Below are positions 7,403 to 35,867 of a DNA stretch of 64,000 nt, one piece after another. The position numbers were made by a program, and so were the translations under genes. The number at the start of each line of letters is the position of its first letter. The first letter of the stretch is position 1. Source of the DNA: Anaerolineales bacterium (GTDB lineage: Bacteria; Chloroflexota; Anaerolineae; Aggregatilineales; UBA2796); NCBI GenBank assembly GCA_015075625.1, contig JABTTZ010000003.1, positions 1-64,000 on the forward strand, given 5' to 3'. A model generated the notes under the pieces. It was not told the origin of the DNA and did no database searches. It saw nothing but the letters and a program-made list of their open reading frames with translations.

Positions 7403-10400
7403 CTACTCTGTCGCCACCGATTGATCGACCTGCAAACTGGCGGGGACGATCTTCACAAATTCTTTCTCCCACCGCGCTAACATTTCGTCAATCCGCGCTG
7501 CCGCCTCCGGTTGGTTGGCGTTAGCCAGCGCTTCGCGGTAGGCGCATAGCAAATCCATCAGGTTTTGCTCGTCGCCCCGGTCTGTGGGGAGGATTTTCAC
7601 ATTGGCGCCCTTCGCCAGCCGCCGCTTGATCGCCGCCATATCAAAGCCGAACTCTGGACGCAGCCGGAGATAGACCACGCCGCCTGTCATCCCGCTGCAA
7701 ATCCATGGACCGGGGTCGCCCAAGACGAGTGCCCGCCCGGAGGTCATGTACTCAAAGGCGTACCCTTTCAGGTTGGCGCGGGTGGCGATGAAGCCCTGAT
7801 CGTCACGGATTTTTTCCGCGATCTCCCCACCGATGATCAGATCAGCCCCCGAAAGGCGCACTCCGGCGCGGCTGTCGGCGTTTCCCTGAATGATGAACTG
7901 CCCACGCTGCGCCCCGTAAGCGAAACTCTTGCCAACGCTCCCGCCGACGCGCACGCCCTTGTGATTCATGCCCTTCAAGATGGCAACTTTCCCACCAAAG
8001 GCGCATTTCCCCAACCCGTCTTGGGTTGCCCCTTCGACAACGATGGTGACATCGCCGCCATGAAACGCCGCCAACCCGTTCCCCGGCACGGCGGAACTGT
8101 TGAAGTTGAGGGTGATTGACTCCGGGCGTTTTTGATCGCGGCGGAAGCTCACCCCATCGCGTGCGCCAAGCGTCAGCCCGTTGGCAAAGCCAAAACGCCG
8201 CACTAACGCCCCCACAAGGTGCGTCCCCAACGCCCGATCAATGCTGCTTGCCTCGGCGTCTTCGTAGGTGATCACGTCCTCGCCGGACTCAATTGCCTCG
8301 CTGACCATATCGGAGATGATCTCCGTCAGGTGGTTGCGCGGGCGGCGCAAGGCGCGCCCAATCGTCCGGCTAAAGTGCGGACGCTCCACGCTAGCGGCAA
8401 CCGCCAGCAAGGGGGTCATGTCCAGTTGATCGGTCATTCGCGCTTGCAGCAGCAGATCGGCACGCCCGACAAGGTCTTGCAAGCGAGCAAAGCCCAACCG
8501 TGCGGTGATCTCCCGCGCCTCTGCCCCCACCGCCTCGAAAAGGTGGCGAAGCTGCCCAACGGCGTCCTCGTACACCTGCGGCTCAAACGCCTTCAAGCCG
8601 TGCGCAATCGCCTGCTCTTTCGTCTCAATCTGGGTGGTAATCCCCACATGACAGGTGTCCGTCTGGCACTTGCGGCAGATCGTACAGCCAATGGCGACCA
8701 TCGCCATCGTCCCAAACCCGACGCGGTTTGCGCCGAGGAGGATCATCTTGACGACATCCGTCCCCGATTTCATCCCGCCATCGCACCAAATTTCCACCTT
8801 GTCCCGCAGACCTGCCTTCAGCAGGGCGGCGTGTGCCTCCACGACGCCGATCTCGGCGGGCAAGCCGACGTACTTTAGGCTGTGTTGGCGTGCCGCACCG
8901 GTGCCGCCATCGTAGCCCGTGATATTGATAATATCGGCGTTCGCCTTCGCCACGCCAACGGCAATCACCCCGATCCCCGGCACGACGGGGATTTTTACGG
9001 CAACTTTTACACGGGGGTTGCTCGTTTTCAGTTCCTCAATGAACTGGGCGAGATCTTCAATTGAGTAAATGTCGTGGTTGTTCGAGGGGGAGATCAAATC
9101 GACCCCGATGTTGGCATTCCGTGCCGCCGCCACCTTTGCGCTGACTTTCTTCCCCGGCAAATGCCCGCCCTCGCCGGGCTTTGCCCCCTGCCCAACCTTG
9201 ATCTCCAAGAGGTACGACGAATTGATCAGTTCGGCGTTTACCCCAAATCGCCCGGAGGCGATCTGCTGCCCGCGATGGTGGGGGTACTTGCCGAGCATGT
9301 CTTTGATCTCGCCTCCCTCCCCATTCAGGCTGTACATGTCCAGTTGGAAAGCGGCTTCGGCATAAGCGCGGAAGGCGATCTCCCCTTGCGAGCCGAACGA
9401 CATCGAGGAGATAATGAAGGGCAAGCTGTGGTGTCCCACCCCCAGTTCAACCTCATCGGCATCGACGCGGCTGTCGGGATCAAAGGCGAAATCGAGCGTG
9501 TGCCGAAGGGCGACGGGTGTCGTCCGTTCGATCTCGTTCAGGCGCTCCATGATCCCCGTGTAATCGACCTCCCCGCTGGCGACCTGCCCCGCCATTTTGT
9601 AAATGTGCGGGTAGATACGCGTCTCTTTGGGCAGCCGTGCGCCCTTGCTCTCCAAAATCTGCGTCCGGTTCTCCGATTCCCGTTGGAGCATTGCCCATGT
9701 CACGCCGCGTTCCGCCGTCCCCGCATAATTCACACAGCCCATGAGCTTGGCAACGGGCGTCGATAAGCCCATCGAGGCAAAGGTTTTCCCGTAGCCGCGT
9801 AGTTCGTGAACGCCCATTGTGGAAGTGATCTTCTGCAAGCCCTTTTCTAGTGCGGTAAAGAGACTCACGACGCGGTTGGCGCGGTCTTCCGGCGTCCCGC
9901 TGCGCATGACGGCGGTTTCGATCAGCATGTAAGGATTTACGGCATCTGCGCCAAGACTGACGGCGAGGATCACATCGTGCAGGTTGCGGATCGCGGCGCT
10001 GCGCAGGATGATTCCCGCTTTCCGGCGGCAATTCCGTCCGTTGGCATCGACCTTCAAGCGCAGCGCCCGATCCACGACGGCGAGGGCAAGGTGTGGGTCA
10101 AGCCAGCCGCACCCGTTCAGGAACATCCCCCCATCGTCAAGGGCGATCAACTGAGCGCCAGCTTCTAGGGCTGCCAGCGCCTCACCGGAAAGGCGCTCCA
10201 ATGCGCTGTAGATCGTTTCTTCGGGGGCGCGGGCAGCGCTCAGGATCACGGCACGTTCGCCAAAGGCGGCGAGGACATCTTCGTAAAGCCATGTTCCGGC
10301 GCATCCGGCGGCTTTGGCATAATCGCCCGTGTCAAGGAGGGGATCACCGGCAATTTGCCCACCCGCCAAAACGGGCAACGCCAGTGGGATGGGCGCGGGT

Positions 10401-12010
10401 TCGTCCTCACCCTCGGCGCTGTTTAAAGACGGACGCGCCCCCAAAATTGCCTCGGTGCTGAAGTGTTCCGTCTCCCGCTCGCGGTCAATCGCCGGGTTGG
10501 TGACGACAGCGACGGCTTCCTTGAAATATTCGCTCAGGTTACGCGGTCCATCGTTGGAGAGCGCGGCAAGCGGTCCATCATAGCCTAGCGAGCCAATCGG
10601 ATCGGCGGCTTTATCCGCCATCTCCACCGCAATATCCCGATCTGTCCGATACCAACCGACGGCTGCCCGCCATGCCTCGGCGCTGCCGGGGGCATCGGGC
10701 GGTATCCATGCCGGAGCGTTTGTCAGCGTGGGCGGCGTCTTGACGGGCTTCAACGCCCGAGCGCGGCGGAGGACTTCCCCGCGCACCTCTACATCGTTGA
10801 AAATACGCACTGTCGATCCGCGATGGATGGAGAGGGCGACCTTTTCACCGGGGGCAAGCGGGCGCGGATCGCGGACGTTCTGTTCCAACGGCACCACGCC
10901 TTGTTCAGAGCTAAAGAAGTAATCCTTTTCCGTCTCGCCAAACCACAGCGGGCGCAAGCCCATGGCGTCTACGCTGAACAAGCATTCATCGCCAAAGCGG
11001 GAGACGATGCCAGCGGGTCCTTGGGCAAAGGGACCCCACCCCATCCGGTAGCGGCGGTAGAGCGCCTGTGTCTCGGTGGGGAGGGCGAGCGCCTCGTGCG
11101 GGACGGGCGGAAAGGCGATCTCCATTGCCTCTAACAGGGTAAAGCCATAGGTGTGGATCAGCACTTCGAGCAGGCGGTTAAGGTCTTGGGAGTCCGATCC
11201 GTTGCGATCCAACTGTGTCCCAAGCATCCGCGCCTCTTGGCGCAGACGGGCAATTGTATTGATCTCGCCATTGTGACCGAGCAGCGAGAAAGGCTGCACG
11301 CGCTCAAAGGCGGTTTCGGTGTTCGTGCTATAACGGGAATGCCCAATAGTGATTGCCGATTGAAATTCGGGGTCGCGCAGGTCGGGATAATACTTGTAGA
11401 GCGTGTCCACATGCCCACGCACCTTGTAAACAACGCTGTGCGTGCTACAACTTACCACATGGATCACCAACTCGCGCTCGATGTGCATCTGGAAATCAAA
11501 GAGACGGGCATTCGCATCACGGGTATCCCGCCCGGGTGCAAAGCCCGCCATCTGCCAAAAGACAGGTTCTTGGGCGCGGGCGAGCGGACCCAACATTTCG
11601 GGGCGGGTTTGCCCCGCTTCGCTGTAGGTGATCTGCAAGATATGCAGTTTCGCCAATTCTTCAATCTTGGCGACGGTCTCTGCGGTGTTCTCCGGTGACA
11701 AAAAGAGGTGTAGCACGAAGAAATTTGGGTCGTTGGACAAATCGCCGGAATGCCCCTCCTCAATGAGCATCCGCCGCCAGATGATGCGCGGAATATCGGT
11801 CAGAACGCCACAGCCGTCGCCTTCCCCGGCGACCTCTCCCGTGCGGTGTCCCATCCGCGAGAGTGCGGCGAGGGTGCGTTTGACATTGCCGTGTGTCGGT
11901 TGTGCCGTCTTGCGGACATTAGCAATCAGGGCGCAGGCGTCACGTTCCATAAGGTATGGACGGTGGTTTTCTTCCGGTGGTGGCATAATCGGCATGGCGT
12001 TTACTCCCAT
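7403..12010 (-). CDS. gltB: Glutamate synthase, large subunit
   Basis: 1535 residues, the normal length. It transfers the glutamine amide nitrogen to 2-oxoglutarate. The N-terminal Ntn glutaminase domain starts at Cys26 (ERDACALIANV) after a 25-residue propeptide, and GEVAGEGDGCG follows. A central domain precedes the FMN-binding TIM barrel (about 790-1170), with SMSFGSQGEIAF and GKGGE-like segments and the 3Fe-4S cysteine set in GCTICRKCQTDTCHVG (~residue 1108). The C-terminal GXGXG beta-helix runs from about 1250. No gltD small subunit is adjacent, so the electron donor is encoded elsewhere or is ferredoxin. ATG 12010 is the first start; ATG 11995 is possible. Weak ribosome site. Confidence 0.97.
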   Translation of the reverse strand: MGVNAMPIMPPPEENHRPYLMERDACALIANVRKTAQPTHGNVKRTLAALSRMGHRTGEVAGEGDGCGVLTDIPRIIWRRMLIEEGHSGDLSNDPNFFVLHLFLSPENTAETVAKIEELAKLHILQITYSEAGQTRPEMLGPLARAQEPVFWQMAGFAPGRDTRDANARLFDFQMHIERELVIHVVSCSTHSVVYKVRGHVDTLYKYYPDLRDPEFQSAITIGHSRYSTNTETAFERVQPFSLLGHNGEINTIARLRQEARMLGTQLDRNGSDSQDLNRLLEVLIHTYGFTLLEAMEIAFPPVPHEALALPTETQALYRRYRMGWGPFAQGPAGIVSRFGDECLFSVDAMGLRPLWFGETEKDYFFSSEQGVVPLEQNVRDPRPLAPGEKVALSIHRGSTVRIFNDVEVRGEVLRRARALKPVKTPPTLTNAPAWIPPDAPGSAEAWRAAVGWYRTDRDIAVEMADKAADPIGSLGYDGPLAALSNDGPRNLSEYFKEAVAVVTNPAIDRERETEHFSTEAILGARPSLNSAEGEDEPAPIPLALPVLAGGQIAGDPLLDTGDYAKAAGCAGTWLYEDVLAAFGERAVILSAARAPEETIYSALERLSGEALAALEAGAQLIALDDGGMFLNGCGWLDPHLALAVVDRALRLKVDANGRNCRRKAGIILRSAAIRNLHDVILAVSLGADAVNPYMLIETAVMRSGTPEDRANRVVSLFTALEKGLQKITSTMGVHELRGYGKTFASMGLSTPVAKLMGCVNYAGTAERGVTWAMLQRESENRTQILESKGARLPKETRIYPHIYKMAGQVASGEVDYTGIMERLNEIERTTPVALRHTLDFAFDPDSRVDADEVELGVGHHSLPFIISSMSFGSQGEIAFRAYAEAAFQLDMYSLNGEGGEIKDMLGKYPHHRGQQIASGRFGVNAELINSSYLLEIKVGQGAKPGEGGHLPGKKVSAKVAAARNANIGVDLISPSNNHDIYSIEDLAQFIEELKTSNPRVKVAVKIPVVPGIGVIAVGVAKANADIINITGYDGGTGAARQHSLKYVGLPAEIGVVEAHAALLKAGLRDKVEIWCDGGMKSGTDVVKMILLGANRVGFGTMAMVAIGCTICRKCQTDTCHVGITTQIETKEQAIAHGLKAFEPQVYEDAVGQLRHLFEAVGAEAREITARLGFARLQDLVGRADLLLQARMTDQLDMTPLLAVAASVERPHFSRTIGRALRRPRNHLTEIISDMVSEAIESGEDVITYEDAEASSIDRALGTHLVGALVRRFGFANGLTLGARDGVSFRRDQKRPESITLNFNSSAVPGNGLAAFHGGDVTIVVEGATQDGLGKCAFGGKVAILKGMNHKGVRVGGSVGKSFAYGAQRGQFIIQGNADSRAGVRLSGADLIIGGEIAEKIRDDQGFIATRANLKGYAFEYMTSGRALVLGDPGPWICSGMTGGVVYLRLRPEFGFDMAAIKRRLAKGANVKILPTDRGDEQNLMDLLCAYREALANANQPEAAARIDEMLARWEKEFVKIVPASLQVDQSVATE

Positions 12011-12253
12011 CGTGTGGATGGTGGATGTACGAATTCAGGGTATATCTTGGTGAAACAAGGGAAAAAAAACATTAGGTGTCAGCGGACGCCAAAGCCCCAT
12101 AGTGGGTTAATCTCACATAGGGCAGGTGTGGCTGAACAATAAATGAAGAATATCACAAGCGTAAACGAGGCGTATTCGGCACGATGCACATAAAATTTGG
12201 GATGGTTTAGTGCAATGTGCCTAGTGGGGGGTGAGGGGAAATTTAGAGAGAGA
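12011..12253. other. Spacer between restriction-modification remnant and gltB
   Basis: About 240 bp that should hold the gltB promoter and leader on the minus strand. I see no RNA gene and no clear riboswitch or terminator. Confidence 0.3.
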
Positions 12254-12598
12254 TCATTCAGCGTCTCCTGTAACACCGATGATCAGCACAGGAACATCGA
12301 TATCTGCCTCGCCGCGATGTTTCAAATCCCAAACAAATTGTTCAAAATAAGAGACACCACTAGACATTTCCGCTGCAAAATCACTCTGCGCTGCAAACTG
12401 GGCTTTATAGGCAGCATTTAGGTCACGTGGATTGTACAGCAAGCGCCCTGTCATCGTTTTTTCGAGGCTGATTTTGGTACGGTATTCGGCGCTACGAATT
12501 GCCCTAATGATCATTTTTATCTCATCAAATTCAGCCGAAAACCGCGTTTCGATCACCTCACGCCCACCCTTAAATGAAAACAAACCGCCGATTCTCAT
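12254..12598 (-). pseudogene. BglII/BstYI-like restriction endonuclease with internal deletion
   Basis: 114 codons, against ~200 in BstYI. Residues 1-68 (MRIGGLFSFKGGREVIE..., YRTKISLEKTMTGRLLYNP, LNAAYKAQF) align with the N-terminus of BstYI as I remember it. Residues ~76-114 (AEMSSGVSYFEQ..., VPVLIIGV) align with its C-terminus. The ~85-90 middle residues, which carry the catalytic Asp and the Glu-x-Gln pair, are missing. A 9-bp direct repeat CGCTGCAAA (12371-12379 and 12389-12397) marks the scar. The frame is kept, so a short, presumably inactive protein could still be made. It overlaps the upstream methylase by 4 bp (ATGA). A GATC-core target is inferred from the family. Confidence 0.8.
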
Positions 12599-13548
12599 CC
12601 CTCCTCACCCCACTCTTTTGGCACTTGGGCAACCTTTTCGCGCCCTGTCGGTTCATGAATTGGCGTTCCAATAGCGCGAAGGCGTAGCTCACCACTGTAA
12701 AACGCAGCGATCCGCTCTTTTGCTAATCCTACATAGGCGGGTTCTTTTTCTGCCCCGATTGCCCGACGATTATGTTTGAGCGCGGCAATTAAAGATGATC
12801 CTACTCCAGCATAAGGATCAAACACGCGATCTCCCTCATTTGTCAACGCTAAGACGCATCGTTCGGCAAGTTCAACCGGAAATTGGCAAGGGTGAGGCGT
12901 TTTTTCAGAGTGGTTGGATTTCACATTGGGAATATCCCACATCCCCAATGCCCATTCATCCGCCATAATCTCCCACACATCTGAGGGGTTTTTTCCTTTG
13001 GGATTGCCAGAAGGCTTGCCGAGGTTGGGTCCCTTATAATGGCGTTTCCCTGGATATTTGGAGGGAACACGCACAGGATCAAGATTAAAAATGTAGTGAT
13101 CTGATTTCGTAAACCATAAGAGTGTTTCGTAGCGCCCTGAAAAGCGCTTGGAGGCATGTAAACCATGCCCAAAATGCCACACAATTCGGTTGCGGAGCGC
13201 CAACCCTGCCCCTTTGAAGAGAGGGTAATAGAACATATCAAGGGGGAACACCTCTCCATCGTCTACGTAATTCCCTACTTGCCAACATAAGCTCCCATTT
13301 GGATGCAAGATGCGCACCAATTCGCGGATTGTCTCGGCTTGGGTCGCCAGATAGGACTCAATGGCGGTGCGCTTTTCATAGACCTTACCCAGATTGTAGG
13401 GCGGAGAAGTGATAATCAGGTTGACGCTTTGATCGGGTATGGTCGGCAGAAAACCGTTCACATCCCCTTCATAAAGGATGATCGCTGCCGTACTGTCATC
13501 GTGGTTGCTGATGGTATAAGGTGTAGGGAAAAGGGGGAGAGTATCCAT
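12595..13548 (-). CDS. DNA (cytosine-N4) methyltransferase of a BglII/BstYI-like system
   Basis: 317 residues. It has the class-beta order: catalytic motif TSPPYN at 47-52, then the AdoMet-binding motif FDPYAGVGSS at ~243-252. TSPPY and the pairing with a BglII/BstYI-like nuclease fit N4-cytosine methylation of an (A/R)GATC(T/Y)-type site; modified base and site are inference. All motifs look intact, so it probably works as an orphan methylase, protecting DNA from a nuclease that is now broken. Its TGA overlaps the nuclease ATG (12595-12598). Confidence 0.9.
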   Translation of the reverse strand: MDTLPLFPTPYTISNHDDSTAAIILYEGDVNGFLPTIPDQSVNLIITSPPYNLGKVYEKRTAIESYLATQAETIRELVRILHPNGSLCWQVGNYVDDGEVFPLDMFYYPLFKGAGLALRNRIVWHFGHGLHASKRFSGRYETLLWFTKSDHYIFNLDPVRVPSKYPGKRHYKGPNLGKPSGNPKGKNPSDVWEIMADEWALGMWDIPNVKSNHSEKTPHPCQFPVELAERCVLALTNEGDRVFDPYAGVGSSLIAALKHNRRAIGAEKEPAYVGLAKERIAAFYSGELRLRAIGTPIHEPTGREKVAQVPKEWGEEG

Positions 13549-20875: not shown

Positions 20876-20890
20876 AATTTGAGGAAAGCC

Positions 20891-21871
20891 ATGAGATACC
20901 GTATCGCCCTCACCCTTATCATCCTTATCAGTGTGGCGTTTTCGCCCACAGGCTATAGCCGTGCCGAGCGTGGGACGATGTTAAGGGTCGTCGCCACAAC
21001 GACGCAAGCAGCTGACGCTGTGCGTATTTTGGCGGGGGATCGTGTCCACCTGACGGCGCTCATGGGGGCAGGCGTTGATCCGCATCTCTACAAGCCCACC
21101 GAGGCAGACATTGCAGCAATGAACCAAGCCGACCTCGTGATCTACAGCGGACTTCATCTGGAAGGGCAGTTTGATGAGGTGTTCAAGGCTCTCGGCGAGC
21201 GGGATATTCGCACCTACGCGGCGGCGACGCCTGTCTTGGAGGCGGGGTTCGTTATGGAGGTGGCAAGTGGCGCTCATGATCCCCACTTCTGGTTTGATCC
21301 GCTGAACTGGGCGATGGCAGTCGATGGAATCGCCGCCGTACTTGGCGAAAGCGACCCGCCCAACGCTGCCTTCTATCGGACAAATGCCGACGCTTACATT
21401 CGCCATTTGGAGGCGCTCTCGGCGTGGGGAGTGGAGGCAATGAGCGTCGTCCCCGCCGAACACCGTATTCTGGTCACCTCGCACGATGCCTTTCAGTACT
21501 TTGCTGCCGCTTTTGGGTGGAAAGTGGGTGCGATTCAAGGGATCAGCACAGTCACTGAGGCAAGCGTTGCCGATATTCAAAAGGTGGCAAAGGCAGTCAT
21601 TGCCGCGCAGATTCCGGTAATTTTTGTCGAGTCCAGCGTTCCCAAGCGGACGGTGGAGGCAGTGGTTGAGGCATGTAAGGCGCAGGGCGTCTCCGTGCAA
21701 ATGGGTATCCGCGAACTCTATTCGGATGCGATGGACGCGCCGGGGAAGTATGGTGGGACGTACATCGGGATGCTGACGCACAACATTTTGACCATCGTGA
21801 AATCGTTTGGGTACGATGTACCATCCTTCCCGCAGACGCTTCTGCCGCAGCCGCCTCCCGAATTACTGTAA
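20891..21871 (+). CDS. Metal ABC transporter substrate-binding protein (TroA/ZnuA-like)
   Basis: 326 residues from ATG 20891, chosen because GAGGAAAG ends 2-5 nt upstream; a TTG at 20879 is rejected. A signal peptide ([15 protein letters not shown]) is followed by a TroA-cluster fold with the metal ligands [25 protein letters not shown] and a late acid in ELYSDAMD. The DPHLYKPT form and the [11 protein letters not shown] end recall manganese/iron-type binding proteins. The His-rich loop typical of ZnuA is missing, which favours Mn or Fe over Zn; this is inference, supported by the DtxR-type operator. It is the first gene of the operon. Confidence 0.92.
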
Positions 21872-21903
21872 GGCACGATCTCACGAAGGAAGTGATTTTA
21901 ACC

Positions 21904-22701
21904 ATGACGGCAACGACACCGCTGATTGCTTTTGAAACCCACGATCTCACCGTCGCTTATCCGAACCAAGAGCAGCCCGCCCTTTGGGGGGCAACACTGC
22001 GCATCCCAGAGGGCGTCCTCATGGCGATTGTCGGACCGAACGGCGCAGGCAAAAGCACCCTGATCAAAGCAGCGCTGAACATCCTCCACCCCACAGCGGG
22101 CGAGGCACGGTTTTACGGAAAACCCTACCGCGAGGCACGCAGCCTGGTTGGCTATGTCCCCCAGCGGGGGAGTGTCGATTGGGACTTCCCGACCACTGTC
22201 CTTGATGTGGCAATGATGGGTATTTATGGGCGGCTTGGCTGGCTGCGACGCCCGGGCAAAGCTGAACGCCAACAAGGGATGGACGCCCTGCAACAAGTGG
22301 GTATGGCAGAGTTTGCCGGACGGCAGATTGGACAGCTTTCCGGCGGACAGCAGCAACGGACGTTTTTGGCGCGGGCGCTTGTTCAGGATGCCTCAATTTA
22401 CTTTATGGATGAGCCATTCGCGGCGGTGGATGCCGTCACTGAACGAGCGATTGTTGCCCTTCTGCGCGAACTGCGCTCACGCGGGCGAACGGTCATCGTC
22501 GTTCACCACGATCTGAGTACCGTGAAAGAGTACTTCGATTGGGTAACGCTTCTCAACGTTGAGGTCATCGCCAGCGGCGCGGTGGGAACAACCTTTACCG
22601 AGGCGAATCTGAACCATACCTATGGGGGGCGAGTTGTCATCGGTGGTGGAACATCGCCGCGCCCATTGGGCGGGGCAGGTTTGGCAGCTGCTACCTCATA
22701 A
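21904..22701 (+). CDS. Metal ABC transporter ATP-binding protein (TroB/MntB-like)
   Basis: 265 residues from ATG 21904; AAGGAAG lies about 12 nt upstream. Walker [10 protein letters not shown]-loop VPQRG, signature LSGGQQQR, Walker B IYFMDEPF and the H-loop VVHHD are all intact. [15 protein letters not shown] after the Q-loop is typical of Mn/Zn-type ATPases. It starts 32 bp after the binding-protein gene. Confidence 0.95.
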
Positions 22702-22740
22702 GGGGCAGCAAGGGATACGCCATTCAAAGGCAGATTGACG

Positions 22741-23607
22741 ATGATTGAACTCGATTACACTCTCCTGATCGTTGCCCTCGGCGGGGCGCTTCTCGGCGCG
22801 TTGAGCGGTGTCCTCGGCACATTCGCCGTCCTGCGTGGGCAAGCCCTCCTCGGTGATATGCTCTCTCATGCGGCGCTGCCCGGGGTTTGCCTCGCGTTTT
22901 TGATTGCCGGACGCTCTCCTCTCGCCCTTTTACTTGGCGCGGGGATCGCCGCGTGGCTTGGGGCGCAGCTTGTCAGCGCGATCACCGATACAACGCGCAT
23001 CAAAGCCGATGCCGCCATTGGGATCGTCCTTGCCTCGTTCTTCGCCTTAGGGATTGCCTTGCTGTCTTCTATTCAAAAACGCGATGATGCCGCCCAAGCC
23101 GGTTTGGATAAATTCATCTTTGGGCAGGCAGCGGCAATGTCCGCCAGCGATATTCTCCTGATCGTCCTTGCCGGCGGGGTGATTCTGCTCAGCATCATCG
23201 CCTTTTGGAAGGAATTCAAACTGATCACCTTTGATCCCGAATTCGCCGGGGCAAATGGCTATCCGGTGCGGTTCTTTAAGGCGCTTTTGGCAACGCTGAT
23301 CGCGGCGGGCATCGTCTTAGGGCTGCAATTGGCGGGCGTCATTCTCATGGTAGGCTTGCTCGTCGCTCCAGCGGCGGCAGCACGGCAGTGGGTGAAATCG
23401 CTGGCAGGGATGGCCCTTTTAGCGGCGTGCTTTGGCGGATTTTCTGGCGCGGCGGGGGCATTTCTCAGCAGCATAGAGCGCGGCTTGCCAACAGGTCCAC
23501 TGATCATCGTTGTGGCGTCGGCGTTGGTGGGGGTGTCGCTTTTGGTTGCCCCCGAACGGGGCATTCTTGCCGTAATGCGCGGGACAAGCCGAACAAAGGC
23601 GAGCTAA
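22741..23607 (+). CDS. Metal ABC transporter permease 1 (TroC/MntC-like)
   Basis: 288 residues from ATG 22741. About eight to nine transmembrane helices and the family motifs LLGDMLSHAALPGV and WKEFKLITFDPEFA (the coupling-helix region) and GVILMVGLLVAPAAAA identify an ABC-3-type permease. It lies 39 bp after the ATPase gene. A second permease follows at 24449, as in TroC/TroD pairs. Confidence 0.93.
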   Translation: MIELDYTLLIVALGGALLGALSGVLGTFAVLRGQALLGDMLSHAALPGVCLAFLIAGRSPLALLLGAGIAAWLGAQLVSAITDTTRIKADAAIGIVLASFFALGIALLSSIQKRDDAAQAGLDKFIFGQAAAMSASDILLIVLAGGVILLSIIAFWKEFKLITFDPEFAGANGYPVRFFKALLATLIAAGIVLGLQLAGVILMVGLLVAPAAAARQWVKSLAGMALLAACFGGFSGAAGAFLSSIERGLPTGPLIIVVASALVGVSLLVAPERGILAVMRGTSRTKAS

Positions 23608-23952
23608 CCGACTTGTCCACTGCACAGCTAGGGTATGTTGACAGTGTAATCCCAGTGATCTCGCCGCTAAAGGAGCGGGTTGAAAGCAGCCACCTCTTCG
23701 GGGTTTGAAAAGCCTGCCTCCACCCCGTAAACAGGGAGAGGGGAGAAATTCTGCGGGCGAGGGGGTGAAGGGGAAGCCCCCTCAAAACCTCTTTTCCCCC
23801 TCTCCCTGAGGGAGAGCGGGTACACGCCGAAGGCGGGTCGCAGGGGGATGAGGGCAAGAGCGTATCTATTGTTATAAAAAGCAAACATTCCAAATCTAAA
23901 ACGTGGATTACAGTTGGCAAAGAGATGATCTCTATAAAATGAGGAGTCTTTC
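23608..23952. repeat. Repeat island inside the metal-transport locus
   Basis: No gene. 23636-23709 is a copy of a dispersed two-hairpin repeat (TGTTGACAGTGTAA ... CCGCTAAAGGAGCGG ... CTCTTCGGGG-TTTGAAA). 23733-23850 holds long GC-rich palindromic sequence (AGGGAGAGGGG and its reverse CCCCCTCTCCCT). These repeats separate the first three transporter genes from the last two. Confidence 0.7.
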
Positions 23953-24390
23953 ATGGCTAACCATAACGATGATCCGCAAGATCCACAACTGAAGACAACG
24001 GAAGGGTTGATTGTTAGCACCGTTAATGATATCCATATCCTAAATATCACAAACCTGCGCCGCGAGACGGTGGATGTGCTTTTAGATATTATTGCCCTTC
24101 AAAACAAAACGGCACGGGAGACGCACAGCCATCTGAGGCGGCTGTTCATTTTAAAGGGCATCTTCCCGACACCTTATTTTACAACACGAGTGCTGCGCGA
24201 TCCGCAGAAATACCAAGCCCCGCCACATTCTTCCAACGCGGTGGTGACGAATGATGGGTTGATGTGGCGTGTGGTGCGCGGGTTGATCGGCAAATTGGAT
24301 ACGAGCGCTGACTCGACAACACACATGGTGGGCAACGAAGCGGAAGCCTACGCATGGTTGGATGCGCGACACAAAACATTAGGCACTTAG
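23953..24390 (+). CDS. Hypothetical protein, possibly STAS-like fold
   Basis: 145 residues, soluble. Not recognised. GLIVSTVNDIHILNI near the start and EAEAYAWLDARHKTL at the end are reminiscent of SpoIIAA/STAS-like small proteins, which often end with an 'AxxWL' helix; this is a weak inference. It lies between two permease genes of a metal ABC transporter, 58 bp upstream of the second one, but follows a repeat island and may have its own promoter. Confidence 0.55.
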   Translation: MANHNDDPQDPQLKTTEGLIVSTVNDIHILNITNLRRETVDVLLDIIALQNKTARETHSHLRRLFILKGIFPTPYFTTRVLRDPQKYQAPPHSSNAVVTNDGLMWRVVRGLIGKLDTSADSTTHMVGNEAEAYAWLDARHKTLGT

Positions 24391-24448
24391 GGGGTTAGCC
24401 GCGTTTCAGCCGCTGCCCCCCTACAGGGATGATTTGGAGGGCAACACC

Positions 24449-25666
24449 GTGAACGCACTTGAGCGTTTGATCATTAATATTCTTCTGCGCTTTTTCAGCG
24501 CCGATCAGGTGAATACGTACTTTGCCGATCCGCGCAACACGGCGATCCTCGTTGGCTCGCTGGTGGCGGTGGCGGCGGCGGTGCTGGGCGTTCTGCTCTT
24601 GCTGCGCAAAATGACCCTCGTCAGCGATGCGATCAGTCACAGCGTCCTGTTTGGCATTGTCGTCGCTTTCCTCGTCATGATCGCCTTTGGCGCAGAGCCA
24701 GAATTATCCTCGCCATGGCTCATTGTGGGAGCAGCCCTCGCTGGTATTCTGACGGTGACGCTTACCGAGGCACTGGCGCGGACAAAACGGGTCAACGTGG
24801 AGACGGCGTTGGGGTTGGTCTTCCCCCTTCTGTTTGCCCTCGCCGTGATCATGGTGGGGCGCTACATCCCCAACGTCCATCTTGATGCTGATGCGGTGAT
24901 GATCGGGGAAATTGGCGTGGCATGGGCGAACACAAACTCCCACTGTCTGACAGCCTGTGACTCCGTGACAATCACGGCGGAAGACCCTCGCGCCAGCGTT
25001 GGACGGCGCTGTGTGAACTGCACCCCCGGTGGGATCACCCCTCGCGACCCTCGCGCCGAATTCGAGACAACCTGCGCCAACTGTGGGACGTATAGCGCGG
25101 CGGAAGCCTGGCGTCTGCGCCTGATCGACACCTCGCCAACGCTTGTGTTCTTCCCCCGCGCCGTAATGCCTATCGGCATGGCAGCCTTAGCCAACTGTCT
25201 GTTCGTCCTCATCCTCTACAAGGAATTAAAACTGGCAACCTTTGACAGCGCGTTGGCGGCGGCATTAGGCTTTCGCCCCGGCACCTTGACCCTCACCCTG
25301 ATGGGCTTGGTCAGCCTGACGGCGGTCACCGCCTTCAATGCGGTGGGGGCGGTGTTGGTGGTCGCCTTTTTCATCCTCCCTGCTGCCGCCACATACCTTT
25401 TGACGGATCGTTTATGGCGGATGGTTGTGTTCGCCCCGCTGTTTGGCATTGTCGGCGTTGTCCTCGGTTACGAGGCGGCGCGGGCGCTGAATCTCTCCAT
25501 CTCCGCTTCGATGGTCGTCGCCCAATTTGCCCTGTTCCTTGTTGTGTGGTTCGTCTCGCCCCGCTATGGACTCATTGCCGAACGCCTCCGGCGGGAGGCG
25601 CGGCGACGTGGTATTAAGGCGCGGTTGGCGGCACGAGCAGCGGCGTCAGGGGAGTCAGTGGGGTGA
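24449..25666 (+). CDS. Metal ABC transporter permease 2 with a six-cysteine insertion
   Basis: 405 residues from GTG 24449, chosen for the GGAGGG site 8 nt upstream. It is an ABC-3-type permease with eight to nine predicted helices and the motifs LVSDAISHSVLFG, HLDADAVMIGEI, YKELKLATFDSALA and GAVLVVAFFILPAAAT. Family members run near 280-300 residues. The extra length is a ~55-residue insertion right after the GEI motif with six cysteines in the pattern C-x3-C-x17-C-x2-C-x17-C-x2-C (residues ~166-212). CVNC and CANC each follow a DPRA segment, so the insertion is an internal duplication. It could be a zinc-ribbon-like metal site at the mouth of the channel. The C-terminal tail is Arg-rich and cytoplasmic. 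Its 3' end overlaps the convergent WD40 gene by 53 bp. Confidence 0.9.
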   Translation: MNALERLIINILLRFFSADQVNTYFADPRNTAILVGSLVAVAAAVLGVLLLLRKMTLVSDAISHSVLFGIVVAFLVMIAFGAEPELSSPWLIVGAALAGILTVTLTEALARTKRVNVETALGLVFPLLFALAVIMVGRYIPNVHLDADAVMIGEIGVAWANTNSHCLTACDSVTITAEDPRASVGRRCVNCTPGGITPRDPRAEFETTCANCGTYSAAEAWRLRLIDTSPTLVFFPRAVMPIGMAALANCLFVLILYKELKLATFDSALAAALGFRPGTLTLTLMGLVSLTAVTAFNAVGAVLVVAFFILPAAATYLLTDRLWRMVVFAPLFGIVGVVLGYEAARALNLSISASMVVAQFALFLVVWFVSPRYGLIAERLRREARRRGIKARLAARAAASGESVG

Positions 25667-31272: not shown

Positions 31273-33582
31273 TTATGGGATGAGCCAATCGAAATCATCC
31301 TGCGTCAGATCGTTTAGCGCATCATCATCGATAACCAGTTGGTCTGGGGTGTGTTCAGCCTGTGGTGGATCAAACGGGCGGGAGGGGTCGAGCCAGTCGT
31401 CAAAATCATCCTCCGCTGTGTCGGCTAGGACATCCTCAACTGCCGCTGTGTCGTCGGGTTCAGGCTGAAGCGGATCAGTGGGGTGGGAAGGTGGAACAAG
31501 CCAGTCAAGATCATCCTCATCAGCGCTTAACTCCGTTAAGCCATTATCAAGGGCGAATTTATCTAGGGTGTGTTCAGACTGCGGGGGATCAAAGGGACGG
31601 GAGGGGTCGAGCCAGTCATCAAAATCATCCTCCATCTCGCCGGCTAGGGCATCCCCAACGGCGAATTCGTTCGGGGTAAGTTCGCCTTGCATTAGATCAA
31701 GCGAGAGCGAGTCGAGCGCGAGCCAATCAAACGCATCTCCGGTCATGTCGATGATCGGATCATCGGTTGCTACCTGATCGAGGCGGCGATCTTGTGGGCG
31801 CTCTAGCGCGTGGTCAGGCTGTGGTGGCGGCGTGAGTATCCGATTTCCGTGCTTATCAATGTAGAATCGTTCATCGCTATGCTGCGCTAAGCCAAAAATC
31901 CCATTTCCGTAGTTACGGAACGACGATCCATAGAAAAGTACCCGATAGACTTGTCCTGAATTGAAGTGTGGCACACGTCCCAACCGCTGGACAATCGTGT
32001 CGTAGAGGATTCCGTAGTGGGCTGGATGCCCGATATTCTCCAGTACATTGGTAAGTAAATTTTTCATGGAATCAGGTAACGGGCGAGATGAGCGGCGGTT
32101 TTGCCCTCGTGCATCTTCTACATAACGCCTGATGAGTTGATCAACAAGGCGTCGTTCAGCACCACGTTCATCCTCATAATCTGCCGCAATGAGATCGTAT
32201 TCGTGAAGACCGTGCGAAAGCTGTTGGGAAAGCCTTTCTAAAGCGCGAACCAGAGGGGCATTCTTGGGGGGATCAAAAGCACCCTTTATTCTGCTGTTTA
32301 TTCTGCTGTGTTCTAACGCTCTGTAGAGTTTGGTTTTTAGTTTCACCTCAATTTGACGGATACGCTCACGGGTGACACCTAGCCTTTCCCCAACTTCTTC
32401 TAGGGTGAGCGCGGGATGATCGTTCAATCCAAAGCGCAAGCTGAGGATGCGTTGTGCGCGTTGATCCAGATGTCGCTGGCTAAGGCGTTGAAGTGCCTCC
32501 TTCAGCCAAGCGATATCGGCGAGGTCTTCTAAGGAGGCATCAACGATGAGATCAGGCAGAGGAATTTTGTTCCCACCCTGTTTATAGTTCGGAAGGCGGT
32601 CTCGCTCAAGGGAGAGGGGGGGGTCAAAGAGGGCGTAAAAAAGCTGGGCGAGTTTTTCGTTCGCTTGCGCCTGTTTTTTTTCGTTGCGGCGTTCCTTCGT
32701 CTCCGATTCTGGGTAATCATGATCGACGTTGGATGGTGTATTTTTCTTCTGCCCAAGAATCACCTGAATGTCAGCCATACTGGGGGATCGTCCATAGCGA
32801 CTGCGAAAGGCAGTGACACTCTGATGGAGGATGCGAAATTTTTCAAAGAGGTGGATAGGAATACGGATTATTCCGTGTTGATCGGCAGTGGCGCGGGCAA
32901 TCCGTTGGTGTATCCACGTTGCCGCATAGAGTTGAAAGTGAGCGCCAACATATTCTTTGAATGTCTCGGTTGCCCGCCACAACCCCCAAATGCCCTCTTG
33001 CACAAGGTCAAGGTAAGGCAGCCCCCGCCCAATGTAGCTGCGGGCGACCTTCACCACATACCGGAGCGTCCCCTCTACAAGGCGTTTTTGTGCCTCATCC
33101 GCCTCGACAAGGCGTTCACGGATATAAGCATCTGCCTGATCGTCGGCGGGAGTATCAAGGCGACGCAGGGCGGGCGGCAAGAGGGAGATGAGATAAAAAC
33201 AACGCCACCCTTGCTCGATAAAGGCGGCTTGCCCCGCGTCGGAAAGATCGGTGTAGCGACCAAAGAGGTGTGACAATGCTGAGGGCGCAGCGTGTGTGGG
33301 CGTATTGAAGAAGGGGTCAATGTCGTTCGCCAGTACGCCTAAATCAAGGGAGGGTTGTCCAAACTGGGCGGCGGTTTGATTGATCTGCTGATAAGCGATT
33401 TTCGCTTGGTGGAGAACGGCGTTTGAATCGATTGCATCTGTCGGTTTCCGGTTAGATTCATCCGCTCCACGAATGACCATCTTCCATTGGACGCGCCGAA
33501 TAAGGGGGGCGTAATCTTCACGTCCGCGAATGATGGGAATCGCGGCAAGGTCTTGGAAAAATAGTTTTAATAGATTGGGCAT
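31273..33582 (-). CDS. Large sigma70-family factor with HARE-HTH-like domain and acidic repeat tail
   Basis: 769 residues. Residues ~165-240 are sigma region 2 (YLDLVQEGIWGLWRATETF, QLYAATWIHQRIAR). Region 3 follows, then a ~90-residue Lys/Glu-rich insertion (~275-350) and region 4 at ~375-425 (RFGLNDHPALTLEEVGERLG, RIRQIEVKLK). Residues ~505-568 (LLTNVLENIGHPAHYGILYD, SSFRNYGNGIFGLAQ) look like an HARE-HTH domain, rarely linked to sigma factors to my knowledge. The last 170 residues are strongly acidic and carry five copies of a DDFDWL-type motif at about 616, 652, 690, 725 and 762. Two copies extend to DDFDDWLDPSRPFDPPQ and are 73 codons apart. No anti-sigma gene is adjacent. Start MPNLLKLFFQDL at ATG 33582. 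Confidence 0.85.
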   Translation of the reverse strand: MPNLLKLFFQDLAAIPIIRGREDYAPLIRRVQWKMVIRGADESNRKPTDAIDSNAVLHQAKIAYQQINQTAAQFGQPSLDLGVLANDIDPFFNTPTHAAPSALSHLFGRYTDLSDAGQAAFIEQGWRCFYLISLLPPALRRLDTPADDQADAYIRERLVEADEAQKRLVEGTLRYVVKVARSYIGRGLPYLDLVQEGIWGLWRATETFKEYVGAHFQLYAATWIHQRIARATADQHGIIRIPIHLFEKFRILHQSVTAFRSRYGRSPSMADIQVILGQKKNTPSNVDHDYPESETKERRNEKKQAQANEKLAQLFYALFDPPLSLERDRLPNYKQGGNKIPLPDLIVDASLEDLADIAWLKEALQRLSQRHLDQRAQRILSLRFGLNDHPALTLEEVGERLGVTRERIRQIEVKLKTKLYRALEHSRINSRIKGAFDPPKNAPLVRALERLSQQLSHGLHEYDLIAADYEDERGAERRLVDQLIRRYVEDARGQNRRSSRPLPDSMKNLLTNVLENIGHPAHYGILYDTIVQRLGRVPHFNSGQVYRVLFYGSSFRNYGNGIFGLAQHSDERFYIDKHGNRILTPPPQPDHALERPQDRRLDQVATDDPIIDMTGDAFDWLALDSLSLDLMQGELTPNEFAVGDALAGEMEDDFDDWLDPSRPFDPPQSEHTLDKFALDNGLTELSADEDDLDWLVPPSHPTDPLQPEPDDTAAVEDVLADTAEDDFDDWLDPSRPFDPPQAEHTPDQLVIDDDALNDLTQDDFDWLIP
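31340..31635. repeat. Imperfect ~70-bp direct repeats in the sigma factor gene
   Basis: Two near-identical stretches (about 31344-31413 and 31563-31632, offset 219 bp or 73 codons) encode the DDFDDWLDPSRPFDPPQ copies; a degenerate third copy lies at ~31480-31525. The repeat keeps the frame, so the tail grew by in-frame duplication. Confidence 0.8.
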
Positions 33583-33834
33583 GAGGAGTTGAGGTGTAAA
33601 ATGATATTTACACCACTATAACATGAAATGGTCGTGATTCGTGCGGCGGTTAGGTCGTTGGGCTGAAACCAACTAACCCTTCGGGGCTTGAAAGGTATCA
33701 TCCTCTCGGGATGCGGATAGGGCATCCCTACCCTATGCCGAGAGGCAATCAGGTATCTTGCATTTGCAGACGGGCGGCGCTCATGCCGACAACGGCGATC
33801 AGGGCGGCGATGATCGCCATGAGAATATAGACCC
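33583..33834. repeat. Intergenic region with partial dispersed repeat
   Basis: 33645-33694 carries a partial copy of the two-hairpin repeat (GTTGGGCTGAAACCAAC ... CCCTTCGGGG-CTTGAAAGG). The remainder holds no gene I can support. Confidence 0.6.
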
Positions 33835-35238
33835 TCACCCCTGTTCATCCGGCTCAGTGTGGATCGTCACCCGCCGTAGTTCCGGCAGCGAAGCGCGGAT
33901 GTGAGTCTCCATTTCCTCAGCGATCAAATGTGCCTCTTGGACACTCATCGTCCCCGGTAGTTGGCAGGATACACTGAGCGCATAGCCTGCCATAACCGCC
34001 CGCACTTGGGCATCGGCAAAGCGGGCTGTGGGGTAGCGCTCTTGGGCAATCTGAAGGGCGCGATCTCGCAGAATAAGCGCCATCTCGCTTTGCATAATCG
34101 ATCCGGCGTTCATCTCGGCGGGTTCGATGTGCGTCACCACGCGGACGATAGCGGGCAGATCAGCGCAGACGCGCTCCTCAAGGGCGCTCACTTTCTCATG
34201 CGCCTGACGGAGGGTGAGGGTAGGGGGAACTTCGACATGCATTTCAAGGATGCGCCCTTCGGCGCTGAGGATTTCGGTCACTTCGTGAATCGATAATCCC
34301 ATCGCATCCGCCGCCGCCCGCGCTGCTAAGGCATGATCTTTCCCTTCGGGGCGGTTCGGTGTGAACTGCACTTGCACCTCAATAACACCAGTATTTTCTG
34401 CCCGGAGACGGCGCTCAATTTCTTCGGCAAGGGCGTTCGCCCGATCCGCTGTCGTAGAGGGATCAACGCGCACTTCGACATCGGCTTGCACGGCGTCGCC
34501 GGGACCACGACTCCGCGCCCGTGTGACACTTGTCACCCCCGGCACAGAAAGCGCCACGCGCTCGATCAGGGCGGGGTCAAGGGCAATCCGATCTGTAAGA
34601 ATACCGGTGGTTTGTTTGAGGATCACGAACGCTGCCCGCCCAATGAGGACGACAATCAACAAGGCGATCACAGTATCCATCCAAGCGAAGCCAAATGCTG
34701 TCATTGCCAAACCGATGATCACCGAGAAGGAAATATAGATATCGACACGGGTCTGCGATGCATCTGCCAAGAGGACGGGCGAACGGAGGCGTTTTCCCTG
34801 TCTTGTCTCGTATAGGACAACGGTTAGATTCACCAGAATGGTAATCACCATCACCGCCACATTCAGGATGGACACCTCCACCTTACCCCCATGCAAGAGG
34901 CGATCCAGCGCCGAGGTGAGGATTTCCCACGCCGCCACAAGCAGCAGTCCACCAATGGTCAGCGTGGCGAGAGTCTCAAAACGGCGGTGACCGTAGGGAT
35001 GATCAGCATCGGGCGGACGACCCGCCACCCGCGAGGCGGCAATCCCCACAAGGTTGCTGGCAGCGTCCATCGTGGAATGAAAACCGTCGGCAACCATCGC
35101 CAGAGTTCCCGTCAGCACGCCAATGACGATCTTTGCGCCGGCAACCCCCGCATTAGCAATCAAGACCAACCAAAGGGTGCGCTGCACATGACGAAACCGT
35201 TCGGCGTCGGGGAGAGAGACGAGCGGCGGCGCACTCAT
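33835..35238 (-). CDS. Cation diffusion facilitator (CDF) transporter with three C-terminal domains
   Basis: 467 residues from ATG 35238. Six transmembrane helices: helix 2 has ADGFHSTMDAASN with the H-x3-D metal site. Helix 5 has ADASQTRVDIY, where the usual His is Gln (Q-x3-D). The cytoplasmic part repeats the ~80-residue dimerisation/ferredoxin-like domain three times (about 215-290, 305-380 and 395-465), each with a VxVxxPxTxxxAxxLAEEIE-like pattern; most family members carry one copy. It exports divalent metal (Zn, Mn or Fe) by proton exchange. Start overlaps the rnhB stop (ATGA), so the two are coupled. Confidence 0.9.
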   Translation of the reverse strand: MSAPPLVSLPDAERFRHVQRTLWLVLIANAGVAGAKIVIGVLTGTLAMVADGFHSTMDAASNLVGIAASRVAGRPPDADHPYGHRRFETLATLTIGGLLLVAAWEILTSALDRLLHGGKVEVSILNVAVMVITILVNLTVVLYETRQGKRLRSPVLLADASQTRVDIYISFSVIIGLAMTAFGFAWMDTVIALLIVVLIGRAAFVILKQTTGILTDRIALDPALIERVALSVPGVTSVTRARSRGPGDAVQADVEVRVDPSTTADRANALAEEIERRLRAENTGVIEVQVQFTPNRPEGKDHALAARAAADAMGLSIHEVTEILSAEGRILEMHVEVPPTLTLRQAHEKVSALEERVCADLPAIVRVVTHIEPAEMNAGSIMQSEMALILRDRALQIAQERYPTARFADAQVRAVMAGYALSVSCQLPGTMSVQEAHLIAEEMETHIRASLPELRRVTIHTEPDEQG

Positions 35239-35867
35239 GATAGTTTTAAACCGGGGAGAGGGGCGCTTAGCGTCTTGGCGATGAACTGTGTCCGGTGGTG
35301 TTCTGTCGCCCCATAACGGCGCAAGGCGGCAATATGGTCTTTTGTCCCATAGCCGTGATTGCGATCCCACCCATACAGGCTGTGCATCTGATGAAGATCG
35401 GTCATGATCCGATCCCGCGTCACCTTTGCCACAATGGACGCGGCGGCAACAGCCGGGATAGATTCATCGGCGCGGATGCGGTTGATGTGTTTTGCTTTCA
35501 ATGGTGGCGGGAGTTCAAGGCGCAAATTTCCATCGACAAGGTAGTGATCGACGGGGTGAAGGCTTACCCCGACGCGCCCAATAAGACGCTCAAAAGCGGT
35601 TCGATTTGCCCACCCAATGCCATGTGCGTTGATCGCCTCCACACTGATTTCGATGACCTCCACACAAAGGGCAGCCTCATAAATCACGGTGTAGAGCGCC
35701 TCACGCTGTTTCTGGCTCAATTTTTTGGAATCGCGCAGGATTGCCTTGCGAAACTGTTCGGCAAAGTCATAGCCCACCGGAAAAATCACGGCAGCGGCAA
35801 GCAGTGGTCCAGCAAAGGGTCCCCGCCCCGCCTCGTCCAGCCCGCAAATGCGTTCACCTATCAGCAT
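35235..35867 (-). CDS. rnhB: Ribonuclease HII
   Basis: 210 residues from ATG 35867; a GTG at 35900 would add 11. It removes ribonucleotides and RNA primers from DNA-RNA hybrids. Motif ICGLDEAGRGPFAGPL carries two metal-binding acids (Asp-Glu), followed by RDSKKLSQKQRE, VDGNLRLEL and AAASIVAKVTRDRIM with the distal Asp. The C-terminus HRTQFIAKTL is typical. It is translationally coupled to the CDF gene and divergent from a glycosyltransferase 62 bp away. Confidence 0.96.
   Translation of the reverse strand: MLIGERICGLDEAGRGPFAGPLLAAAVIFPVGYDFAEQFRKAILRDSKKLSQKQREALYTVIYEAALCVEVIEISVEAINAHGIGWANRTAFERLIGRVGVSLHPVDHYLVDGNLRLELPPPLKAKHINRIRADESIPAVAAASIVAKVTRDRIMTDLHQMHSLYGWDRNHGYGTKDHIAALRRYGATEHHRTQFIAKTLSAPLPGLKLS

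Follow-up and report, generated by a model that had tools for sequence, protein, structure and literature searches.

The window, a 64,000-nucleotide stretch of an Anaerolineales genome, contains at positions 31273-33582, on the reverse strand like all features of the gene given below, a single intact, ATG-started frame of 769 codons. The encoded protein (769 aa) is an RpoD-type σ70 factor followed by a C-terminal HARE-HTH-like domain and an acidic repeat tail. Alignment with the RpoD of the same genome (L107) shows that regions 1.2, 2, 3.0, 3.2 and 4 are all present, with region 1.2 starting the N-terminus and region 1.1 missing. Specifically, a region 1.2-like segment (residues 5-33; 33484-33570), with a match to TIGR02997 from residue 6, is followed by an insert (residues 36-150; 33133-33477) at the position of the RpoD non-conserved region, for which searches of Pfam, NCBIfam and PHROGs returned nothing useful. 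Region 2 (residues 160-240; 32863-33105) is matched by Sigma70_r2 (PF04542) over residues 168-234, at an E-value of 2.9e-12 and with 46.6 bits against a curated cut-off of 24. After region 3.0, the rest of region 3 is replaced by a K/E-rich stretch, and a region 3.2-like finger comes next. Region 4 (residues 371-420; 32323-32472) is matched by Sigma70_r4 (PF04545) over residues 371-414, at 1.7e-12 and with 47.1 bits against a curated cut-off of 24.1, and its VTRERIRQIE helix, the conserved −35 recognition helix, is identical to that of the genome's own RpoD.

Regions 2 and 4 both exceed their curated Pfam cut-offs, which places the protein in the σ70 family and bears out an earlier note on this DNA, which had called the two regions intact. 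In NCBIfam and PDB searches, the core groups with the RpoD/SigA/RpoS sigmas, and the ranking of its best matches puts it with RpoD-like sigmas. The protein, whose tail the earlier note had contrasted with primary σ factors, is not the primary σ itself: the TIGR02393 score of 147.6 lies below the RpoD equivalog cut-off of 354, and a separate, normal RpoD sits at G000:C1:294674. By its sequence, the protein is an alternative, RpoD-type σ70 factor, and its anatomy is firm. Region 4 is followed by a linker (residues 421-503; 32074-32322) that lacks a family match. Direct searches of Pfam, NCBIfam and PHROGs with the linker and the HARE segment gave nothing useful, and three of the best weak matches to the linker (L068, L069 and L070) were rejected because they fall within or close to genes with no visible relation to σ or HARE proteins.

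Locus and distribution

The neighbouring genes encode a PadR regulator, an aldo/keto reductase, an ArsP permease, a cation-efflux protein, RNase HII and glycosyltransferases; they include no defence genes, and we discarded a reading of the locus as a defence island. The cation-efflux gene, of the zinc type (33835-35370), adjoins the σ gene, and a zinc uptake cluster comprising ZnuA, an ABC ATPase and two ABC-3 permeases lies at 20879-25666 of the window. A gene for an N6/N4-type DNA methylase (PF01555, 1.9e-49) is found at 12595-13548, 18 kb from the σ gene. Between a TATAGT hexamer (33615-33620) and the σ ATG lies the palindrome GGTGTAAA-N6-TTTACACC (33593-33614), so that the two elements together span 33593-33620. 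The inner arms of the palindrome occur free of mismatches at the σ gene and nowhere else in the genome, and the hexamer and palindrome possibly represent a promoter and operator, both putative.

The protein is known so far from one genome only, and this single occurrence calls for caution and caps the claim. A full-length search of 61 genomes (its own and 60 relatives) returned only generic σ core matches of about 31-44% identity, and no match to the N-terminal 430 residues exceeded 152 bits within the class, which is the range of ordinary sigmas. An orthologue of the C-terminal part was absent from 396 genomes of the class and from 400 genomes of the phylum, the second set partly overlapping the first. 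Plasmids and phages gave no matches beyond the σ core, and peptide-pattern scans of 84,980 species' genomes and of viral contigs found none, the reach of such scans, built from a single protein, being close relatives only. A sister genome retains the pair of RNase HII and cation-efflux genes, and the gene after the cation-efflux gene is not a σ gene; its translation was read as a carbamoyltransferase. At 0.52, the GC3 of the σ gene lies below the values of its adjacent genes (0.59-0.71). Acquisition or rearrangement at the σ locus is likely.

The HARE-HTH-like segment and the acidic tail

The HARE-HTH-like domain, a predicted winged helix (residues 504-572; 31867-32073), is recovered by profile-profile comparison and through an intermediate, and missed by direct Pfam search. 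The σ factor does not reach the gathering score of PF05066, and Pfam detects no HARE-HTH in the frames of this genome, the σ factor included. Comparison of residues 495-580 with 18 HARE-HTH domains of the same class by hhalign gave a probability of 95 and an E-value of 2.5e-8. The real score of 43.2 compares with 24.4 for the best of 200 shuffles, and 86-residue windows of five neighbouring proteins all scored 16.3 or less. In addition, BLASTP identified the HARE domain of L032, which itself exceeds the PF05066 cut-off, as the closest found, with 39% identity over 59 residues. Homology to HARE-HTH domains thus stands on both hhalign and the BLASTP match to L032. The earlier note had proposed that its view would fall if homologues lacked the tail and it were limited to this assembly, or if the HARE-HTH call failed a profile search; the protein is indeed known from this assembly only, whereas the call survived, by hhalign. 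Against solved structures, the best PDB match of the HARE profile is an RNA polymerase δ subunit, a weak match (E 0.011). Viral scans for HARE domains, made for a deeper alignment, found none, and single-sequence AlphaFold2 gave pLDDT values (46 for the HARE segment and 38 for the whole protein) too poor for use.

The tail consists of five tandem units of 36-37 residues in the pattern A-B-A′-B′-A″: A (residues 586-622; 31717-31827), which belongs to DNA repeat family D5, B (623-659; 31606-31716), A′ (660-696; 31495-31605), B′ (697-732; 31387-31494) and A″ (733-769; 31276-31386), all delimited by W-L spacing and by DNA repeats. Five D-(F/L)-D-(D)-W-L motifs place W-L at residues 620, 657, 694, 730 and 766, at spacings of 37, 37, 36 and 36 residues, in agreement with the five copies of the earlier note. 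Its 219-bp offset is likewise right, but corresponds to two units of about 36.5 residues and not to one; the DNA repeats at 31323-31443 and 31542-31662 are 79% identical. The regular expression D[FL]D{1,2}WL matches the tail four times, and none of 100,000 shuffles of the tail yielded more than one match. Residues 606-769 contain 50 D/E and 3 K/R, for a net charge of −47, and no structure is predicted for them; the acidic repeat tail described earlier is upheld. Searches of Pfam, NCBIfam and PHROGs with the tail returned nothing useful, and a search of the genome with it found only itself.

The pair of near-identical repeats reported earlier is present, although the identical protein block, EDDFDDWLDPSRPFDPPQ, is 18 residues long and not 17. 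Its two copies, at residues 651-668 (31579-31632) in unit B and 724-741 (31360-31413) in unit B′, are set apart by five synonymous changes but not a single replacement (dS 0.78, dN 0), whereas the flanks are rich in replacements (dN 0.63 against dS 0.35 in the left flank). Because the block was picked after looking, we also compared the longest replacement-free run with random placement. In this one repeat pair from one genome, the probability of synonymous-only change in the block is about 0.00025 (sites), and that of the run is 0.00015. Since only synonymous changes have accumulated in the block, amid flanks with many replacements, the motif itself seems to be under purifying selection, beyond charge alone. 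The divergence of B and B′ at synonymous sites argues against gene conversion or a copy made very recently. A pure polyanion would need no conserved 18-residue motif, and the apparent selection on it favours specific binding as the role of the tail. The tail would then illustrate how a short peptide motif can come under selection within a disordered region of a bacterial protein.

Similar motifs, which the earlier note did not consider, occur in TPR proteins of the same order. In this genome they were seen in two proteins, 1270 and 1000 aa long, that are encoded side by side elsewhere (L106:5952-9764 and 9947-12949; about 71951-78948 of contig G000:C4). Both have tetratricopeptide repeats (TPRs), weak in the second protein, and long acidic stretches, probably disordered, that are full of DWL, AWLQ and PSWL. 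The first has matches in 21 of the 21 genomes searched, mostly via its TPR part, and its DWL array is retained in one relative. The notion that DWL clusters occur everywhere in the proteome was dropped: in a 400-kb sample of the rest of the genome, DWL sites are scattered singles, and clusters have been seen so far in the σ factor and the TPR proteins.

Readings of the C-terminal part

The δ subunit and σ region 1.1 are thought to have related functions at the main channel of polymerase, and a natural σ core with a δ-like module would make this idea testable in one polypeptide by simple truncations. Because the Firmicutes δ subunit is laid out in the same way, with a HARE domain and then an acidic disordered tail, our preferred, though tentative, reading, to which we give somewhat less than an even chance, is a σ factor carrying a δ-like module in cis. 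In Bacillus subtilis δ, a folded N-domain is joined to an acidic region that is disordered and has a net charge of −47; the N-domain resembles σ region 1.1 and binds the β′ shelf and jaw (PMC7749165). The acidic region of Staphylococcus aureus δ has been proposed to enter the main channel, to exclude DNA and to compete with region 1.1 (PMC11156646). Since region 1.1 is absent here and the parts at the C-terminus follow the order seen in δ, a δ-like gate in cis would be the most economical reading. In the hypothetical mechanism, the σ factor would direct polymerase to promoters near the housekeeping type, the HARE domain would dock either on polymerase or on promoter-proximal DNA, and the tail would mimic nucleic acid, competing at the main channel against non-specific DNA or RNA, a step modelled on the proposals for the C-terminal region of δ and for region 1.1. 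The WL motifs would serve as specific anchor points of the tail. The HARE domain is tethered to region 4 by a linker of 80 residues, across which it would have to reach the β′ shelf and jaw. Against the δ-like reading weigh the conserved motif, which charge alone would not call for, the marginal sequence similarity to δ and the occurrence in a single genome.

The main rival is a multivalent docking array, in which the DWL repeats would bind a partner (a scaffold, an anti-σ factor or a TPR protein) that stores, localises or releases the σ factor, the acidity being secondary. We keep it close because a selected motif implies specific contacts here too, and rate it as somewhat unlikely. Selection on the exact motif, and not on charge alone, speaks for a docking array, and the two TPR proteins with their DWL-, AWLQ- and PSWL-rich stretches come from the same genome, one of them having a TPR part found in all 21 relatives and a DWL array kept in a relative, while other DWL sites in the 400 kb are scattered singles. 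However, the likeness between the σ tail and the TPR proteins is one of a three- to five-residue motif only, the tail finds no homologue in the genome, and no partner gene lies beside the σ gene. A form of the δ-like module in which a built-in, δ- or σ1.1-like C-terminal gate acts in cis under the control of a WL-binding partner, possibly a TPR protein, shared across the lineage, is improbable in our estimate; if true, the gate would be a HARE winged helix bearing an acidic array of WL peptide motifs.

HARE-HTH domains have been proposed as readers of modified DNA (PMC11037411), and the domain could thus read modified or particular DNA and steer the σ factor to such promoters, with the tail serving in activation or solubility. 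The order of region 4 and then HARE is seen again in proteins of the same class that also carry an RNA polymerase αCTD, and the DNA methylase gene is only 18 kb distant. The methylase is, however, unlinked to the σ gene, and that HARE-HTH domains read modified DNA at all has only been proposed; we regard this alternative as quite improbable. The least probable of all is that the gene is a singleton, acquired recently or changing fast, and that its additional C-terminal part serves no lasting function. This would fit the single genome, the sister genome without a σ gene after the cation-efflux gene, the low GC3 and the fast-changing tail flanks, but sits poorly with the intact 769-codon frame, the retained DNA-contact helix of the σ core and the synonymous-only changes in the motif.

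Comparison with known systems

By E-value, the top NCBIfam and PADLOC profile is MzaA, of the Mza anti-phage system, a match made via the σ core. In MzaA, however, the σ core lies at the C-terminal end, and we rejected the identity: the score is 162.6 bits against an equivalog cut-off of 800, and there is no mza neighbourhood and no adjoining defence gene.

A related arrangement is that of an αCTD-σ region 4-HARE-HTH family of the same class (L032:619-3132, L097:1-2364 and L098:34-1692), in which σ region 4 is likewise followed by HARE-HTH, in another protein family. Those proteins have an RNA polymerase αCTD of their own, no σ region 2 by Pfam, two HARE domains by BLASTP and no reported acidic tail.

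With the RpoD/SigA-type (group 1 and 2) σ70 factors, the protein shares regions 1.2, 2, 3.0, 3.2 and 4, the insert between regions 1.2 and 2, and the VTRERIRQIE helix. It differs from them in having no region 1.1 and a replaced middle of region 3, in its added HARE-HTH domain and acidic repeat tail, and in scoring far below the RpoD equivalog cut-offs.

The δ subunit (RpoE) of Firmicutes RNA polymerase shares with the C-terminal part the sequence of a HARE-HTH-type domain, here a predicted winged helix, and an acidic, disordered region behind it. δ is a separate small polymerase subunit, whereas here the corresponding parts form the C-terminal part of a larger protein, fused in frame behind σ region 4, and DWL repeats build the tail. 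Sequence similarity to δ is marginal: neither the δ family models nor solved δ chains matched the C-terminal part, the HARE domain and tail searched directly against the PDB found nothing, and only the HARE family profile reaches δ, weakly. The net charge of −47, spread over 164 residues in the σ tail and over 83 in B. subtilis δ, is a coincidence of no weight. The link to δ that the earlier note had drawn is nevertheless upheld by the same order of parts and by δ being the best, if weak, PDB match of the HARE profile.
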